NCBI RefSeq assembly: GCF_025996515.1
Contig: NZ_BLRH01000034.1
Coordinates: forward strand, 372,001 to 436,000
From: Rhizohabitans arisaemae
Lineage (GTDB): Bacteria; Actinomycetota; Actinomycetes; Streptosporangiales; Streptosporangiaceae
Reading direction: 5' to 3'
DNA length: 64,000 nt
Shown here: in pieces, positions 1 through 60,120 of the stretch
Position numbering within the stretch: position 1 is the stretch's first letter
Layout of the letters: every line of letters begins with the position of its first letter
Notes under the pieces: generated by a model
What the model was told of the DNA's origin: nothing
What the model saw: only the letters and a program-made list of their open reading frames with translations
Databases searched by the model: none
Program-made: the position numbers and the translations under genes

Positions 1-1856
1 CACTGGCCGGCGAGGAAGGCGTCGTTGCCCAGCAGGAACAGCGCTTCGATCGCCGAGGTGACGGCTCCGCCGTCGCGGCCGTGGCCGACCACGCGCCACA
101 ACCCCTCGCGGCACCGTCCCAGCCGGTCGACGTAGGAGGCGGCGACGCCGACGCGGGAGATGCGCTCGGGGATGAGCTCCTGGTTCAGGTCCGCGATGAC
201 CGTGTCCAGCCGGTCGAGCACCGGCGGCGCCAGGCGGGCCGGATCGGAGAACGTCTTGCCGAGGATGTCCAGCAGCTCGGGAGGCGCCGGCCTGAGGCGC
301 CCCATCGCCGCGTGGAAGGGTTCCCACAACTCGGCGCGTCCGCCGTAGAAGCACACCATGAGCAGCGTGTACAGGCTCTGGATCAGCGGCTTGCTCCGGA
401 CGTCGCCGGGGTCGGCCTGCATCTCCATCGCACCGACCAGCAGGCGGTGGGCGCTGTCCACATCACCGTCTCCGTTGAGCAGGTGGTAGGCGTCGGCGAC
501 CGCGGTGAGCAGCGACTCGCCTCGCCGGTCGGTGCGGCGGGCCTGCTCCAGCAGGCGCGGCGCGGCGCGTAGGTCACCGTTGGCGATCGCGCCGATGTAG
601 GCGGCTTCGCTCAGCCGTCCGGCCCGGCCGGGGCCGGCCGGGCTCAACTCGGCCGCGCGTAGGAGCAGCGTGACGGCCCGGACGCCGTCGCCACGGCACA
701 GGTTGGCGTACGCCACGGCCTGCAGCAGTGCGGCGACCTCCTCATCGGGTCCGACGGCCGCTTCGGCCAGGTGCCAGGCCCGCCGTTCCCGTTGGTCGGC
801 GAGGCGCTCGGCGAGGAGCCGGTGCGCCCGGCGGCGCTGCTCACCCGTGGACGACTCCACCACCGCCGAGCCGATCAGCGGATGGCGGAAAAGCAGCCTC
901 CCGCCTTGCTCGAATCGGACCAGCCGCGCCCGTTCCGCGGGGGCCAGCACGTCTCCCGCGTCCGGGACGTCCAGGACTCCGGTCCCGTCCAGGACGGCGA
1001 GCAGCAGCAGGTCGTACGTCGCAGCCGGCAGATCTCTGATCCGTGCGGCGAACACCGCCTGCAGGCGCCTGCCGAGCGGCAGAACCGGGGGCAGCGCGCC
1101 GCTTGAGAGCCGTTGGAGGTCGCCGAGCGCCACCGGCAACTCCAGCAAGGCCAGCGGGTTTCCCTGAGCATCGGCCAGGAGCCGCTGCCGGGTCCGGGGG
1201 GCCAGCGCCGGGAAACGGGCTTTCAGCAGCGCCGCGGCGTCCCGCTCGTCCAGCGGCTGCACCTCGTAGCCGGGCAATCCGCCGTGTTCGAAGAAGCCCT
1301 CCTCGCCCGAGCGGGACGCCGCGAGCAGTCCGACTGCACTGCCGGTGAGTCGGCGTGCCACAAAGCCCAGAACGACGGCGCTGGCCCGGTCCAGCCACGC
1401 GATGTCGTCGACGACGACCAGGAGCGGACGGGCGGCGGCGGCCTGGCGTAGGAGGACAAGAGCCGCGTTGGCCACCAGGAGCTGCCCTGGCGGCGCTCCT
1501 TCACCCAGCCCCAAGGCGACGCTCAGCGCCCGCTCGTGTACCGGGGTCAAGGTCGGCAGGTCCGCAAGCAGCGGGTGCAGGACATGGTGGAGGCCGGCGA
1601 AGCTCACCTCGGCCTCGAACTGCGAGCCGGAGGCACGCAACACCCGGTGGCCGGCCGCCAGCCCCCGCGCCGCGGCGACCTCCAGCAGCACAGACTTGCC
1701 GACCCCGGCCTCGCCCAGCAGGATGAACGCGCCGCCCTGGACTGCGGCCCGGTCGACGAAGTCGCCGATCCGGGCGATGTCCCGTTCGCGGCCGATCAGC
1801 GATTCCGCCGGATCGTTGATCGGCGAACCATGACCGAAGGGTGGTTTCCCTCCCAT
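1..1856 (-). CDS. LAL-type AAA ATPase transcriptional regulator (LuxR family), 3' end outside window
   Basis: Uninterrupted reading frame of 618 codons from ATG 1856 that runs off the left edge, so the C-terminal part, where this family carries its LuxR helix-turn-helix, is not visible. Near the N-terminus there is a Walker A P-loop, GEAGVGKS (about residues 48-55), and a Walker B stretch LLVVVDD (about 145-151) followed by WLD, the usual DDxxWLD form of STAND-type LAL regulators. The rest is helical, TPR-like sequence. Family members are about 900-1000 residues, so roughly two thirds is present. It is expected to be a cytoplasmic nucleotide-dependent activator; its target is unknown. It is transcribed in the same direction as the catabolic operon at 2-6 kb but is separated from it by a 200-base gap holding a gene remnant. 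Identification of the family is firm; regulation of the neighbours is only a possibility. Confidence 0.85.
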   Translation of the reverse strand, partial: MGGKPPFGHGSPINDPAESLIGRERDIARIGDFVDRAAVQGGAFILLGEAGVGKSVLLEVAAARGLAAGHRVLRASGSQFEAEVSFAGLHHVLHPLLADLPTLTPVHERALSVALGLGEGAPPGQLLVANAALVLLRQAAAARPLLVVVDDIAWLDRASAVVLGFVARRLTGSAVGLLAASRSGEEGFFEHGGLPGYEVQPLDERDAAALLKARFPALAPRTRQRLLADAQGNPLALLELPVALGDLQRLSSGALPPVLPLGRRLQAVFAARIRDLPAATYDLLLLAVLDGTGVLDVPDAGDVLAPAERARLVRFEQGGRLLFRHPLIGSAVVESSTGEQRRRAHRLLAERLADQRERRAWHLAEAAVGPDEEVAALLQAVAYANLCRGDGVRAVTLLLRAAELSPAGPGRAGRLSEAAYIGAIANGDLRAAPRLLEQARRTDRRGESLLTAVADAYHLLNGDGDVDSAHRLLVGAMEMQADPGDVRSKPLIQSLYTLLMVCFYGGRAELWEPFHAAMGRLRPAPPELLDILGKTFSDPARLAPPVLDRLDTVIADLNQELIPERISRVGVAASYVDRLGRCREGLWRVVGHGRDGGAVTSAIEALFLLGNDAFLAGQ

Positions 1857-20290: not shown

Positions 20291-20366
20291 CGTCGGCTCT
20301 CGGGCACGGGCCCGCGTCCCCGGAAGTCTCGGTCTCCGCATGGGAACATCCGGCGGGAACAAAACG

Positions 20367-20395
20367 TCGTACAAAGTACATTGTACTTTGTACGA
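20367..20395. promoter_or_regulatory. 29-bp perfect inverted repeat (TetR-type operator)
   Basis: Fourteen-base arms TCGTACAAAGTACA and TGTACTTTGTACGA flank a single central base with no mismatch. The element sits between the decayed MMPL gene and the VOC gene, 26 bases before the TTG start of the latter. Such GTACAAAGTAC-type operators bind TetR-family repressors. No TetR gene is found next to it in this window. Confidence 0.8.
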
Positions 20396-20420
20396 AGATT
20401 TCCTACCGAGAGGGATTCTC

Positions 20421-20831
20421 TTGCGCATCACCGCTTCGGCAGTCTCGCTCAACGTCGACGACGTCCCGGCGTCCAGCGACTTCCTCACCCGCCACTTCGG
20501 ATTCACCGAGCAGATGTCCGCCGACGGCTTCTCCTCCCTGGCCAGGGAGGACTCGGGCATGAACGTGATCTTCCTGCGCCGAGGCCGGGAGTCCCTCCCC
20601 GCCGACCAGCGGGACGACCACGCCCAAGGCCTGATCCTCGCCTTCGTCGTCGACGACCTGGAAGGCGAGCTGGCCCGCCTGGAGGCCGAGGGCGTGGCGA
20701 TCACCATGCCCCTCACCGAGGAGCCGTGGGGGGAGCGCGCCTTCCAGGTGCGCGACCCGGGCGGGGTCATCGTGCAGCTCGTCGACTGGAACGGCCCGGT
20801 CGCCGAGGGCGTGGACCCGGCCGGCGCATGA
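20421..20831 (+). CDS. VOC family (glyoxalase/bleomycin-resistance fold) protein
   Basis: A 136-residue VOC protein with two beta-alpha-beta-beta-beta modules: ITASAVSLNVDDVPASSDFL opens the first and ILAFVVDDLEGELARLEAEG the second, ending in VRDPGGVIVQLVDW. The start is TTG 20421: GAGAGGGA lies 5 bases before it, and the family sequence begins exactly there, whereas in-frame ATG codons upstream fall inside the operator. Function could be metal-dependent isomerisation, dioxygenation or drug sequestration. The 29-bp operator directly upstream indicates tight repression by a TetR-type protein encoded elsewhere. Confidence 0.87.
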   Translation: MRITASAVSLNVDDVPASSDFLTRHFGFTEQMSADGFSSLAREDSGMNVIFLRRGRESLPADQRDDHAQGLILAFVVDDLEGELARLEAEGVAITMPLTEEPWGERAFQVRDPGGVIVQLVDWNGPVAEGVDPAGA

Positions 20832-25585: not shown

Positions 25586-25767
25586 GGACAGCACTCCCTT
25601 TCGAATCGACCGGCCCATGGCAGGGCGTGGCGGGCGACGGTCAGGTCGGAGGTGACCGTCGCGATACGGGTGTGGTGGGCTGGAGGTGGGGTGCCGGGCG
25701 GTTGGCAATGGCGGGGGTGCCGCCGGTGCCCGGCCCGGGGTTCCCGGGCCGGGCACCGGCGGCGGGG

Positions 25768-32439: not shown

Positions 32440-32994
32440 TCAGGGGGCGGCCGGGGGCGGGTCCGCCGCCTTTCCCGCGGTGGACAGCTGCTCGATCGCC
32501 CAGAGCGCCCACTCGCGCATGGCCTTGTACTGGAGCGCCCCGAACTCGGCGGCGAGCACGCCGAACCACTCGTGGCCGGGCCGGAATTCGGCGTTCTTCA
32601 CCGAGGCCTCGATGTGGTCGAGTTCGGCCGCGGCCTGGTCGGCGAGCCGGTGCAGCAGGGTGAGCGAGTCGGCGACGGAGAGGGTGGGGATGAGGAACAT
32701 CCGCAGCACCTCCACGTTGCGGACCTTGCCCCCCGTCTGGGGCGGGTCCATCATCCAGGAGCGCAGCTCGGCCCGTCCCCGCGCGGTCAGGGCGTAGGTC
32801 CGGCTGCCGCGGGCGCCCTCGGCCGTCACCTCGATGAGCCCGGCGGCCGCCATCTTGCCCAGCTCGGGGTAGATGTTGGTGTGCCCGGCCTGCCAGGCGT
32901 AGCGGCTGAGGTCGCCCTCGAACATCTTGGTGAGCTCGTATCCGGTCCGCGGTTCGAGAGCGAGCAGGCCCAGCAAGGCGTGGGGCAGGGACAT
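32440..32994 (-). CDS. PadR family transcriptional regulator (Vir-like C-terminus)
   Basis: A 184-residue PadR protein: MSLPHALLGLLALEPRTGYE, then NIYPELGKMAAAGLIEVTAE as the wing helix, and a C-terminal helical dimerisation domain ending in a proline-rich tail. The length is that of the two-domain PadR subfamily. It is divergent from the carotenoid oxygenase gene, and three GACATGTC palindromes lie in the 76 bases between them, so it most likely represses both directions. Confidence 0.92.
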   Translation of the reverse strand: MSLPHALLGLLALEPRTGYELTKMFEGDLSRYAWQAGHTNIYPELGKMAAAGLIEVTAEGARGSRTYALTARGRAELRSWMMDPPQTGGKVRNVEVLRMFLIPTLSVADSLTLLHRLADQAAAELDHIEASVKNAEFRPGHEWFGVLAAEFGALQYKAMREWALWAIEQLSTAGKAADPPPAAP

Positions 32995-33019: not shown

Positions 33020-33055
33020 GACATGTCACTTTTGACATGTCGAGATTGACATGTC
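33020..33055. promoter_or_regulatory. Three GACATGTC operator boxes at 14-bp steps
   Basis: The 8-bp palindrome GACATGTC occurs at 33020-33027, 33034-33041 and 33048-33055, each exactly 14 bases after the previous one. The third lies 15 bases before the carotenoid oxygenase start and the first 25 bases before the PadR start. The boxes resemble the ATGT/ACAT half-sites of known PadR operators. Confidence 0.8.
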
Positions 33056-33070
33056 AAAGATGACTGGTAC

Positions 33071-34453
33071 ATGCTTCCCGGCATGACCACCGACCATGAG
33101 CCCCCGCCGCACCTCACCGGGCCGCGGGCCCCCGTACCCGACGAGATCGACGCCGTCGGCCTGCCGGTCCGGGGCTCGCTGCCCCCCGAACTCAACGGCC
33201 GCTACTTCCGCAACGGACCCAACCCGCGACCGGGCGAGACCACCCCGCACTGGTTCATCGGCCCCGGGATGATCCACGGGATCCGGCTCCGCGGCGGCCG
33301 CGCCGAGTGGTACCGCAACCGCTGGGTGCGCACGGGCACCCTGGAGGGCCGGAGCCCGATCGGCCCGGACGGTGCCCGCGACCTCGCCGTCGGGATCGCC
33401 AACACCCACGTGATCCCGCACGCCGGCCGGATCCTGGCCCTGGACGAGGGGAGCTTCCCGCACGCGATCACGCCGGAGCTGGCCACGATCGGCCCGCTGG
33501 ACTTCGGGGGCCGCCTCACCACGGCCATGACCGCGCACCCCAAGGCCGACCCGGTCACCGGCGAGCTGCACTTCTACGGGCACGGCTTCGCGCCGCCGTA
33601 CCTCACCTACCACCGGCTCTCCGCCGCCGGAGAGCTCACCGTCAGCGCGGAGATCGCCGTACCCGGCCCGACGATGATCCACGACTTCGCCGTCACCGAC
33701 CGGCACGCGATCTTCCTGGACCTGCCGATCACGTTCCAGCTCGAACGGTTGTCCACCGGCATGCCGTACGGCTGGGACGACGGCTACGGGGCCCGGATCG
33801 GCGTCATGCCGCTGGACCGGCCCGGTGAGGTCCGCTGGTTCGAGGTGGAACCCGCCTACGTGTTCCACGTCGGCAACGCCCACGTCGACGCCGCCGGGCG
33901 GGTCGTGTTGGACGCCGCCCGCTACTCCGCCGCCGACGCGGTGGCCATGTGGGACGCGCCCGGCCTGGACGCCGCCGACCCCGGGGCCGGCGCCGCCGCC
34001 ACCGGCGCGGCCCGCTGGCACCGCTGGACGCTGGACCCGGCGACCGGTGCCGTCGGCGAGACCCCGCTGGACGACCGCAGCGTCGAGTTCCCCACCCTCG
34101 ACGACACCCGGGTCGGCCGCGAGGCCCGGTACCGCTACGCGGTGACCGACGTCACCGGCAAGGCCGGGATCCTGAAGTTCGACACCGCCCGCGGCACCGT
34201 CGCCGAGCACCCGATGCCCGCCGGAACCCTCCCCGGCGAGGCCGTGTTCGTGCCCTCGGCGGACCCGGGCCGGGCCGAGGACGACGGCTGGCTGCTGTCG
34301 GTCACCGTCCGCGAGGACGGGGGCCCGTCCGAGCTGCTGGTGCTGGACGCCACCGACGTCGCCGGGCCGCCGGTGGCCGTGGTGACCCTTCCCCGCAGGG
34401 TGCCGTTCGGATTCCACGGCTCCTGGATCGACGACGCCGACCTGGAGTCGTAG
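33071..34453 (+). CDS. Carotenoid oxygenase (RPE65/CCD family)
   Basis: A 460-residue non-haem iron dioxygenase. The four iron-binding histidines of the family are visible: His156 in TAHPK, His204 in MIHDF, His266 in VFHVGNAH and His449 in GFHGSW. N-terminal landmarks LPPELNGRYFRNGPNP and WFIGPGMIHG are also conserved. It cleaves double bonds in carotenoids, apocarotenoids or stilbenes; the substrate is unknown and no carotenoid synthesis genes are in the window. ATG 33071 is close behind the operator boxes and has no ribosome-binding site, so the mRNA may be leaderless; ATG 33083 is an alternative. Confidence 0.92.
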   Translation: MLPGMTTDHEPPPHLTGPRAPVPDEIDAVGLPVRGSLPPELNGRYFRNGPNPRPGETTPHWFIGPGMIHGIRLRGGRAEWYRNRWVRTGTLEGRSPIGPDGARDLAVGIANTHVIPHAGRILALDEGSFPHAITPELATIGPLDFGGRLTTAMTAHPKADPVTGELHFYGHGFAPPYLTYHRLSAAGELTVSAEIAVPGPTMIHDFAVTDRHAIFLDLPITFQLERLSTGMPYGWDDGYGARIGVMPLDRPGEVRWFEVEPAYVFHVGNAHVDAAGRVVLDAARYSAADAVAMWDAPGLDAADPGAGAAATGAARWHRWTLDPATGAVGETPLDDRSVEFPTLDDTRVGREARYRYAVTDVTGKAGILKFDTARGTVAEHPMPAGTLPGEAVFVPSADPGRAEDDGWLLSVTVREDGGPSELLVLDATDVAGPPVAVVTLPRRVPFGFHGSWIDDADLES

Positions 34454-34484
34454 GGCGACTCCGCCACCGCGCCGCTCGGGATCC

Positions 34485-34521
34485 AATGATAAGCCGACCT
34501 ATAATAGGTTGGCTTATCATT
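34485..34521 (+). promoter_or_regulatory. 37-bp palindrome centred on a TATAAT box
   Basis: Eighteen-base arms, AATGATAAGCCGACCTAT and ATAGGTTGGCTTATCATT, pair with one mismatch around a single central base. A perfect -10 hexamer TATAAT sits at 34500-34505, in the middle. GAGGAGG (34522-34528) follows immediately as ribosome-binding site for the ATPase gene. A repressor bound here would fully block the promoter. Confidence 0.8.
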
Positions 34522-34532
34522 GAGGAGGTCGC

Positions 34533-36002
34533 GTGGACAAGCCCGCGGGGATGTTCGACCGGGACTACGAGTGGGCGGAGCTGTCCAGGTTCACGGAGTA
34601 CCCCGGGCCGGAGGCGACACTGGGGATCGTGTCGGGCCGGCGCCGCCAGGGGAAGACCTTTCTGCTGGACGCGGTGTGCCGGGCGACCGGGGGGTTCTTC
34701 TTCGCCGCGACCGAGGCGACCCAGGCCGAGTCGCTCCACCAGTTCGGCACGGCGATCGCGCGGCACCTGGGGGAGGGTACCCCGCGCCGGTTCGCGGGGT
34801 GGGACGAGGCCGTCGAGGTGCTGATGTCGCTGGCGCGCGACCGGCCGACCCCGGTGGTGATCGACGAGTTCCCCTACCTGGCCAAGGCGTCCCCCCAGCT
34901 GCCTTCGCTGATCCAGCGGGCCCTTGGCCCGCAGGCGCAGCGGGCGGGCACCCCGGTCCGGCTGCTCCTGTGCGGGTCGGCGCTGTCCTTCATGGGCGGA
35001 CTGCTCGCCGGTACCGCGCCGCTGCGGGGGAGGGCGAGCCTGGACCTGGTCGTGCCCACTCTGGACTACCGGCTCGCCCGGCGGTTCTGGGAGATCGACG
35101 ACCTGCGGCTGGCGTTCCTGGTCAACGCGGTCGTCGGCGGCACCCCCGCATACCGGCGCGAGTTCACCTTCGGCGACGCGCCCCGCGACATGACCGATTT
35201 CGGGCCGTGGGTGGTGCGCAACGTGCTCAACCCGGGCAGGCCGCTGTTCCGGGAGGCGCGGTTCCTCCTCGCCGAGGAGCCCGAGATCCGGGACACCGCC
35301 CTCTACCACGGCGTGCTGTCGTCCATCGCCGACGGCAACCACACGCGGGGCGGCATCGCGGGCTACCTGGGCCGCAAGTCCACCGACCTCGGTCACGCGC
35401 TGACCGTGCTGGAGGACGTCGGTATGATCATCCGCGAGCCGGACGCGTTCCACGGGAAGCGGACGGCGTATCGGATCGCCGAGCCGATCCTCGCCTTCTA
35501 CCACGCGATCATGCGCCCGGAGTGGACGGACCTGGAACGTCCGGGATACGCCGACGAGGTGTGGAGCCGCTCCCAGGCCCGGTTCCGCGACCACGTCCTC
35601 GGACCGCACTTCGAGCATCTGGCCCGGACTTGGGCGCGCTGGCACGCGGTGCCGGACACCCTCGGCGGGAGGCGCACCCGGGTCGCCTCGGGCACCCTGT
35701 CGGACCCCGCGAACCGGACCACCCACGAGCTCGACGTCGTGGTGTTCGGCCGGGACGGCGACGGGCCGGAGCGGATTCTGGCCATCGGCGAGGCCAAGAG
35801 CGGCGACGTGCTCGGCCGGGCGCACCTGGAGCGCCTGGAACGGCTCCGGCGCCTGCTGGCGGGCCGGGACGGGCGGGCGTCCGGCGACGTGCGGCTGCTG
35901 CTGTTCAGCGGCACCGGTTTCATGCCCGCGCTCACCGAGGAGGCGTCGCGGCGGGACGACCTTCAGCTCGTCGACCCGGCCCGGCTCTACGAGGGATCCT
36001 GA
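34533..36002 (+). CDS. AAA ATPase with C-terminal DUF234 nuclease-like domain
   Basis: A 489-residue protein of the archaeal-type ATPase group (COG1672). Walker A is GRRRQGKT (35-42) and Walker B is PVVIDEFPYL (108-116). Residues about 230-330 look like a winged-helix unit (HTRGGIAGYLGRKSTDLGHA). The C-terminal DUF234 part contains HELDVVVFG and LAIGEAKSG (D-x-n-ExK), the catalytic pattern of PD-(D/E)xK nucleases. Such proteins are common in archaea and scattered in bacteria, and are suspected to act in DNA processing or defence; the biological role is not settled. GTG 34533 has a strong GAGGAGG site. It stands alone under a highly palindromic promoter. Confidence 0.85.
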   Translation: MDKPAGMFDRDYEWAELSRFTEYPGPEATLGIVSGRRRQGKTFLLDAVCRATGGFFFAATEATQAESLHQFGTAIARHLGEGTPRRFAGWDEAVEVLMSLARDRPTPVVIDEFPYLAKASPQLPSLIQRALGPQAQRAGTPVRLLLCGSALSFMGGLLAGTAPLRGRASLDLVVPTLDYRLARRFWEIDDLRLAFLVNAVVGGTPAYRREFTFGDAPRDMTDFGPWVVRNVLNPGRPLFREARFLLAEEPEIRDTALYHGVLSSIADGNHTRGGIAGYLGRKSTDLGHALTVLEDVGMIIREPDAFHGKRTAYRIAEPILAFYHAIMRPEWTDLERPGYADEVWSRSQARFRDHVLGPHFEHLARTWARWHAVPDTLGGRRTRVASGTLSDPANRTTHELDVVVFGRDGDGPERILAIGEAKSGDVLGRAHLERLERLRRLLAGRDGRASGDVRLLLFSGTGFMPALTEEASRRDDLQLVDPARLYEGS

Positions 36003-36144
36003 GCCTTTCCGGCCGCCGGATTCGGCCCGTCGGGTCACCGGAATTCGGGCGGGCCGGGAACGGCCGAATTCCGGCGGGACTCGGAGCCGAATTGTGTTTT
36101 CGGATGCCCGTCGAAGTCGGCGCCGTGTCGTATCCGGATAATCA

Positions 36145-59986: not shown

Positions 59987-60089
59987 CAGCCGTGCTCCTC
60001 TCCGGTTCGCTCGCGGGTCCGCTGCCGGACACGCACGGAAGCCCCATTTCGGTTATGCGGGACCCAGGGGATTATGTCAGGCAAAGTAT

Positions 60090-60120
60090 GGCTAACCTTA
60101 GTTAGGTTAGCCTTGCCTTT
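60090..60120. promoter_or_regulatory. DtxR/IdeR-type iron box between divergent siderophore-import genes
   Basis: GGCTAACCT (60090-60098) and AGGTTAGCC (60104-60112) form a perfect 9-bp inverted repeat around 5 bases. The sequence TTAGGTTAGCCTTGCCTTT (60102-60120) matches the 19-bp iron-box consensus TTAGGTTAGGCTAACCTAA at 13 or more positions, so two overlapping sites are likely. Iron-loaded DmdR/IdeR would repress both the permease operon and the binding-protein gene. Confidence 0.8.

Follow-up and report, generated by a model that had tools for sequence, protein, structure and literature searches.

The gene at 34533-36002 of the window, by which we mean the whole 64-kb stretch of DNA that was analysed, is best explained as a self-contained unit of one gene, whose product combines a STAND/NB-ARC-like ATPase with a winged helix and a PD-(D/E)xK domain and which has a private putative operator. 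This operator lies over the core promoter, with the -10 box at the spacer of two 10-bp dyads that repeat every 15 bp, and remote relatives of the gene in Bacteria and Archaea share the geometry of this operator but not its sequence. In our opinion the data as a whole are best explained by a protein that binds its own operator and represses itself, and we regard this as rather probable. The initial annotation had already considered that the protein may regulate itself; with an operator that is private and paralogue-specific, this has become the likeliest reading. The features around the gene are as follows.

34484..34522, + strand: 39-bp palindrome CAATGATAAGCCGACCTATAATAGGTTGGCTTATCATTG, a putative operator that is kept together with the gene in an alignment of 12 orthologues
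34491..34500, + strand: left half of the 10-5-10 core, a 10-bp dyad unit AAGCCGACCT, placed by geometry
34506..34515, + strand: right half of this core, a 10-bp dyad unit AGGTTGGCTT offset by 15 bp from the left unit, placed by geometry
34500..34505, + strand: TATAAT, putative -10 box, at the spacer that separates the two dyad units
34522..34528, + strand: ribosome-binding site GAGGAGG, read from the sequence
34533..36002, + strand: coding sequence beginning with GTG, for a protein of 489 aa with a STAND-type ATPase, a winged helix and a PD-(D/E)xK domain
36038..36074, + strand: palindrome 36 bp past the stop codon, possible transcription terminator

The palindrome before the gene has two 19-nt arms with 1 nt between them, 18 of the 19 pairs being complementary (95%), and it adjoins the ribosome-binding site of the 489-aa gene directly. 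It had been described as a 37-bp palindrome centred on TATAAT; the palindrome is real and TATAAT is indeed its centre, but the length is 39 bp. The strong ribosome-binding site said to follow it is there as well, GAGGAGG lying 4 nt 5' of the GTG at 34533. In 100 dinucleotide shuffles of the gene's own 90-bp upstream stretch, no palindrome as good was obtained (p=0.010). Only one palindrome of the 64-kb window is stronger, a GC-rich hairpin at 25719-25763, and by the score of its 10-5-10 core (19.3) the site before the gene stands at the top of the window.

The gene directly upstream (33071-34450, +) is of the RPE65 (carotenoid-oxygenase-like) type. Since the ATPase gene follows the RPE65 stop on the same strand, the palindrome is shared with no divergent gene. 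The window holds other sites of this general kind. GTCACTTTTGACATGTCGAGATTGACATGTCAAAGATGAC is a palindrome at 33025-33064, flanked on one side by the RPE65 gene and on the other by a divergent PadR gene (32440-32994, -); it is probably the PadR operator, and the PadR gene is kept beside RPE65 relatives in 8 of 11 inspected loci. An AT-rich 41-bp palindrome, AAAACGTCGTACAAAGTACATTGTACTTTGTACGAAGATTT, lies at 20361-20401, at the start of a small ORF (20340-20831) which, from reading its sequence, looks like a glyoxalase/VOC gene. Finally, TGGCTAACCTTAGTTAGGTTAGCCT at 60089-60113 resembles the actinobacterial iron box.

Genes for such ATPases are patchy in the host family: 23 of 61 genomes have matches, from 1 to 7 each. 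The family survey comprises 65 distinct full-length relatives, 5 partial rows of 70 being left out and locus L123 being dropped as a duplicate of L085, which changed the main count from 50/66 to 49/65. Of the 65 relatives, 49 have a palindrome at p<0.05 within 110 bp of the start; among the other genes of these loci, which served as a control, the figure is 19 of 233. The concern that the palindrome might not be conserved with the gene can hence be set aside. The palindromes are also confined in position. At -85..-5 they occur before 50 of the 65 survey genes, whereas control stretches of the same genes gave 3/64 (-165..-85), 5/64 (-245..-165) and 2/65 (inside the gene). The set of relatives that includes the genome's own paralogues has palindromes in 37 of 62 cases, plasmid-borne homologues in 6/6 (first set) and 11/16 (further set), and DUF234 genes in 14 of 22 usable ones. 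About a quarter of the survey genes, among them paralogue L007, are without a significant palindrome, and significance varies with the length of the stretch (for L006, p is 0.02 at 90 bp and 0.10 at 110 bp). Some of these ATPase genes stand side by side in pairs, namely at G017:C266 and G020:C45 (L084/L108 and L085/L123), one genome having a convergent pair and the other a tandem one.

When the palindromes are placed side by side, a common plan becomes visible: two or three dyads of about 10 bp, of the form AAnnnnnnTT, with 5 bp between them, so that the pattern repeats every 15 bp. The letters themselves differ, as the following examples illustrate.

Window gene: AAGCCGACCT-ATAAT-AGGTTGGCTT
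Cetobacterium: AATTTGAATT-ATTAT-AATTTAAATT
Mesorhizobium: AACCTTGATT-ACCGT-AATCAGGATT
DUF234 actinomycete: AATCGCGATT-TGACA-AATCGCGATT

The repeat is also found by a test that is blind to palindromes, in which the upstream stretch is matched to itself at each lag. At lag 15 this self-match has z 15.7 in the 65 survey genes, 8.8 in 56 further relatives and 6.7 in the six plasmid-borne homologues. Out of sample, the signal recurred in 16 further plasmid-borne homologues, with z 8.5 for lag 15 and 4.1 for lag 30; this set spans haloarchaea, alphaproteobacteria, Phocaeicola, Cetobacterium, Vescimonas, M. jannaschii and two actinomycetes. The 22 plasmid-borne relatives in which the 15-bp signal is seen were hand-picked for taxonomic spread from 133 records; they are mostly haloarchaeal, with alphaproteobacterial, Bacteroidota, Fusobacteria, Rhodothermus and M. 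jannaschii members besides. The Rhodothermus marinus homologue, on plasmid pRMAR01 (L074), lies directly after csm5 of a type III-A CRISPR locus. An independent sample consists of DUF234 genes taken from 198 Actinomycetota genomes, in which 22 of 29 were usable (the others were lost because the start could not be placed or the upstream stretch was too short); here lag 15 has z 11.7, while z stays at or below 1.7 for the remaining lags between 8 and 23. Control genes behave differently: lags 12, 15 and 18 are raised alike, which is a pattern of coding DNA, and their upstream stretches are in part coding because their starts were taken as the first ATG or GTG of long ORFs. In a comparison with 2820 shuffles, the 10-5-10 score, whose A/T edge term was tuned on the same data, lies above the 95% point for 90 of 141 upstream stretches, above the 99% point for 68 and above the highest shuffled value for 30; the lag-15 test was re-run on genes not used before.

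What reads these sites? The gene had been called an orphan. A regulator is indeed absent next door, but the gene is not alone in its genome, which has five more full-length paralogues. Four of the five carry a palindrome of their own just 5' of the start, each a different one, and for the fifth (L007) the upstream palindrome test was not significant. If one regulator per genome were responsible, the paralogues should share their sites; the sites differ, which disfavours a single shared reader. Operators within one genome are no more alike than operators from different genomes at equal protein identity, and operator similarity tracks protein similarity (Mantel r 0.61, p<=0.001), a co-divergence that arises partly because of shared descent. 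The window operator pattern, with up to three mismatches allowed, occurs in the 8.3 Mb of the genome only here and at one other place, L162 (G000:C23:98752-98786). That is a long multi-unit array of the same type, before an ATPase-like stretch of about 120 bp in which the N-terminal ~45 residues of these ATPases can be recognised (40% across 45 aa, E 0.02) in a frame broken by stops, with nine residues identical to a relative; it is, to judge from its sequence, a probable decayed paralogue.

The neighbours do not offer a reader either. None of the five flanking proteins of the window occurs in the loci of ATPase relatives. The upstream gene has relatives at 15 places beyond the host genome; 11 of these loci were inspected, and the ATPase is absent from all 11. 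Whatever reads the operator has to move together with it; the ATPase alone does so, and it has a winged helix, thus it is the likely reader. A separate transcription factor encoded elsewhere, for instance of the MarR or TetR type, could act through the palindrome instead, and repressors of that sort typically use palindromic operators of similar length. However, such a factor would have to cope with the differing upstream sites of six paralogues in one genome, with their lack of any extra likeness within the genome, with a pattern that recurs only before one probable remnant, and with relatives at about 25-30% identity in other phyla that retain the 15-bp geometry. We consider it quite unlikely.

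Which part of the protein might contact the operator was approached by a sliding partial Mantel scan of protein against operator. It peaks at residues 439-453 (r 0.29), a loop of the nuclease domain with indels; the winged-helix window 256-270 comes second and is borderline (r 0.197, the 95% point of the permutations being 0.196).

The repeated dyads look like iterons, and this raises another question, whether the array is a working site at which the ATPase-nuclease assembles and cuts or moves DNA, be it as a mobile gene with its recognition site or as an iteron-like origin. The patchy distribution and changing context of the gene speak in favour, as do its absence beside the inspected relatives of the upstream gene and the related genes on plasmids (133 records). 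On the contrary, the array is one-sided: in the 65 family relatives its centre is upstream of the start at a median distance of 32 bp, in clade A it covers the -10 box, and significant palindromes in the 80 bp after the stop are fewer (14/65), these being probably terminators. Hence a working site appears to us an unlikely interpretation.

It may also be asked whether the palindrome works as RNA, as a 5' leader hairpin for translation or transcript stability. Clade A does show compensatory changes (covariation 0.230 versus 0.171 in shuffled data, reached in 2/500). Yet TATAAT is central, so the left arm would not be transcribed and the transcription start is expected inside the palindrome; moreover a hairpin needs no 15-bp repeat. 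Among mismatched arm pairs, G-T (118) is scarcely above A-C (95), and this near equality fits a DNA dyad, not an RNA hairpin. We find a role as RNA very improbable.

TATAAT or TATTAT is found at the spacer position in 12 of 12 clade A genes, and one mark of an autorepressor, a dyad over its own promoter which is kept with the gene, is found here. Binding over a -10 box normally blocks RNA polymerase; with the hexamer at the spacer in all twelve orthologues, binding should do so here. It is this position, with the core covering the -10 box itself, that argues against the opposite sign of control, in which the ATPase would use the operator to activate its gene or to sense its dose, a positive autoregulation like that of STAND activators. 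For activation it can be said that a -35 hexamer partnering the TATAAT at 34500-34505 was looked for upstream and none was found, so the promoter may need an activator. Further, IniR, a mycobacterial STAND ATPase regulator whose ATPase domain is predicted to be SSO1545-like, binds and activates the iniBAC promoter, according to the accessible part of PMC5760070. All in all, we attach only a small likelihood to positive autoregulation.

Repression by the protein itself, the reading that we prefer, would work in the following way. The protein would read its own operator, probably via the winged helix, sitting there as a dimer or as a higher oligomer stacked in 15-bp steps, and the bound protein would shut off its own promoter. 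Such negative autoregulation would hold a potentially toxic nuclease at a low level. Less certain is how the system might be switched on: a trigger, such as foreign DNA or a phage product, may be sensed via an ATP-driven conformational change that takes the protein off the operator. The release would then raise both synthesis and nuclease activity and so perhaps provide defence against invading DNA, which is less certain too and a guess.

A bolder version can be imagined, although we think it improbable: an NLR-like 'guard' nuclease for which the guarded object is its own promoter. The ATPase would be parked as an oligomer on the 15-bp-repeat operator, and loss of the operator state during infection, through degradation of host DNA, takeover of transcription or competing incoming copies, would release and at the same time induce the nuclease. 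If this were true, the 15-bp dyad rule would be general to the ATPase-nuclease family in Bacteria and Archaea, and family members would be recognisable by their promoters.

The features of the protein itself are these.

34635..34658, + strand: Walker A, residues 35-42, GRRRQGKT
34854..34871, + strand: Walker B, residues 108-113, VVIDEF
35295..35477, + strand: winged helix-turn-helix, residues about 255-315, from the secondary structure of the model
35565..35999, + strand: PD-(D/E)xK nuclease-like domain, residues about 345-489, from the structure model
35613..35615, + strand: E361, conserved acid of the first helix (64/65 family relatives, 20/20 distant)
35733..35735, + strand: D401 (65/65 family relatives, 19/20 distant)
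35790..35798, + strand: E420-A-K422, the ExK motif (E in 65/65 and 20/20, K in 63/65 and 20/20)

The AlphaFold2 model of the protein is confident (pLDDT 91.5) and shows, in this order, an ATPase domain carrying both Walker motifs, a helical region, the winged helix and a C-terminal alpha/beta domain. The traits of a STAND ATPase, Walker A and B within an NB-ARC-like fold with a winged helix, are thus all present. Paralogues L004, L006 and L007 give weak profile matches of the HTH_5/MarR_2 kind. For residues 3-326 the best solved folds are the archaeal STAND ATPases 2qen and 2fna, followed by NLR proteins, which bears out the earlier designation of the protein as an archaeal-type ATPase.

The PD-(D/E)xK features that had been noticed at the C-terminus hold up as well. 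Modelled alone, this domain has a pLDDT of 92.6 and its matches in the PDB are mostly PD-(D/E)xK nucleases: 1y88, of the PD-(D/E)xK fold (Z 11.2, rmsd 2.8, 111 aligned), 2vld (Z 10.6, rmsd 3.4, 107 aligned), Can2 8bao (Z 9.9, rmsd 5.1, 131 aligned) and MspJI 4f0p (Z 9.3, rmsd 3.5, 119 aligned). Both the motif residues (E, D, ExK) and the core fold of such nucleases are therefore found in the protein. Walker A/B and E361, D401 and E420-x-K422 are conserved across 62 homologues, and the worry that nuclease residues could be missing in homologues is not borne out, these being kept in 63-65 of 65 family relatives and 19-20 of 20 distant ones. The ATPase and nuclease residues are intact, and the protein may cleave DNA.

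The protein family is already known, as candidate defence (PDC-S27) and as archaeal-type ATPases. The PADLOC profile of PDC-S27 (PDLC04984) matches the window protein with E 2.1e-15, over residues 8-216 only. PDC-S27, a candidate defence gene composed of ATPase_2 (PF01637) and DUF234 (PF03008), has the same domain order as the window protein. In contrast to it, the window protein, which sits on an actinobacterial branch, matches neither PF01637 nor PF03008 in a Pfam profile search at E up to 10; the paralogues L006 and L007 stand for PF01637 at 32.8 bits versus 33.2, or at 34.8 and 35. By tblastn, at least 80% of the query is covered in 70 of the 133 plasmid records, and full-length matches at about 25-31% identity come from haloarchaea and other phyla. 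Six of the six distant full-length homologues that were scanned have both PF01637 and PF03008 over the Pfam cut-off, and they match PDC-S27 at 1e-41 to 1e-55. Because the window protein itself matches neither of these two Pfam families but its full-length homologues carry both domains, we call it a relative and not a Pfam-defined member.

A link between a PF01637-like ATPase module and a PD-(D/E)xK family has been described before (accessible text of PMC1913061). PDC-S27 itself was detected 3503 times in archaea and 4562 times in bacteria, and for most such defence candidates experimental validation is pending, as stated in the part of PMC12988326 that is accessible; the literature searched, this part included, contained no experimental proof of defence by PDC-S27 and no tested function for these thousands of genes. 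For the window protein, a defence role would be suggested solely by the remote match to PDC-S27. Regarding a private operator, a 15-bp operator or autoregulation of the PDC-S27-type family, no description was found in the literature searched, in which subscription papers are scarcely covered.

Why should this matter? With a fixed 15-bp spacing and a drifting sequence, the promoter of each such gene predicts which DNA its protein targets, and the spacing points to an NB-ARC-like winged helix that would contact DNA within an ordered oligomer. A private operator is also a possible reporter for finding the trigger. Further, an apoptotic-type STAND fold would be linked to promoter binding and nuclease output within one polypeptide, and the spacing shared by distant relatives suggests that a little-studied candidate anti-virus family controls its own genes.

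Among known systems, the DUF4143 ATPases, a PDC-S01-like sister family, are close in design, being single-gene ATPases with a PD-(D/E)xK-type partner domain. They differ in their upstream stretches: palindromes are found in 4/16 usable genes of the host family and 8/23 of the phylum sample, and the self-match at lag 15 has z 2.9 in the host-family sample and z -1.7 in the larger phylum sample. DUF4143 genes of the host family (loci L174-L198, 16 of 25 usable) show an upstream self-match at 23 bp instead (z 11.5). A 23-bp period as a rule for DUF4143 was dropped, z being 0.8 in the phylum sample (23/29 usable); an operator geometry peculiar to the sister family may exist in the host lineage only.

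IniR is like the window protein in that its ATPase domain is of the SSO1545 type and that it is a promoter-binding STAND ATPase. It is unlike it in its C-terminal DNA-binding domain, which is of another type, and no nuclease is mentioned in the accessible text of PMC5760070, from which IniR is known to regulate an operon, self-regulation not being known from it.

The closest folds are those of two archaeal proteins. PABY2304 (2qen) aligns with residues 3-326 at Z 20.4 and rmsd 3.4 over 299 residues, and SSO1545 (2fna) at Z 19.7 and rmsd 3.5 over 297. Their chains have 350-352 residues and the alignment stops at residue 326, leaving the nuclease domain of the window protein outside. In STAND proteins of the NLR type the winged helix is mostly structural or serves signal relay, which speaks against the winged helix as the reader of the operator. 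The NLR/NB-ARC receptors (RPP1, CED-4, NRC) are without a nuclease and without an operator, unlike the window system, but the NB-ARC of potato Rx1 binds DNA, as the accessible portion of PMC4599002 reports, and they share with the window protein the fold of ATPase plus winged helix (RPP1 7crc: Z 16.7, rmsd 3.8, 288 aligned).
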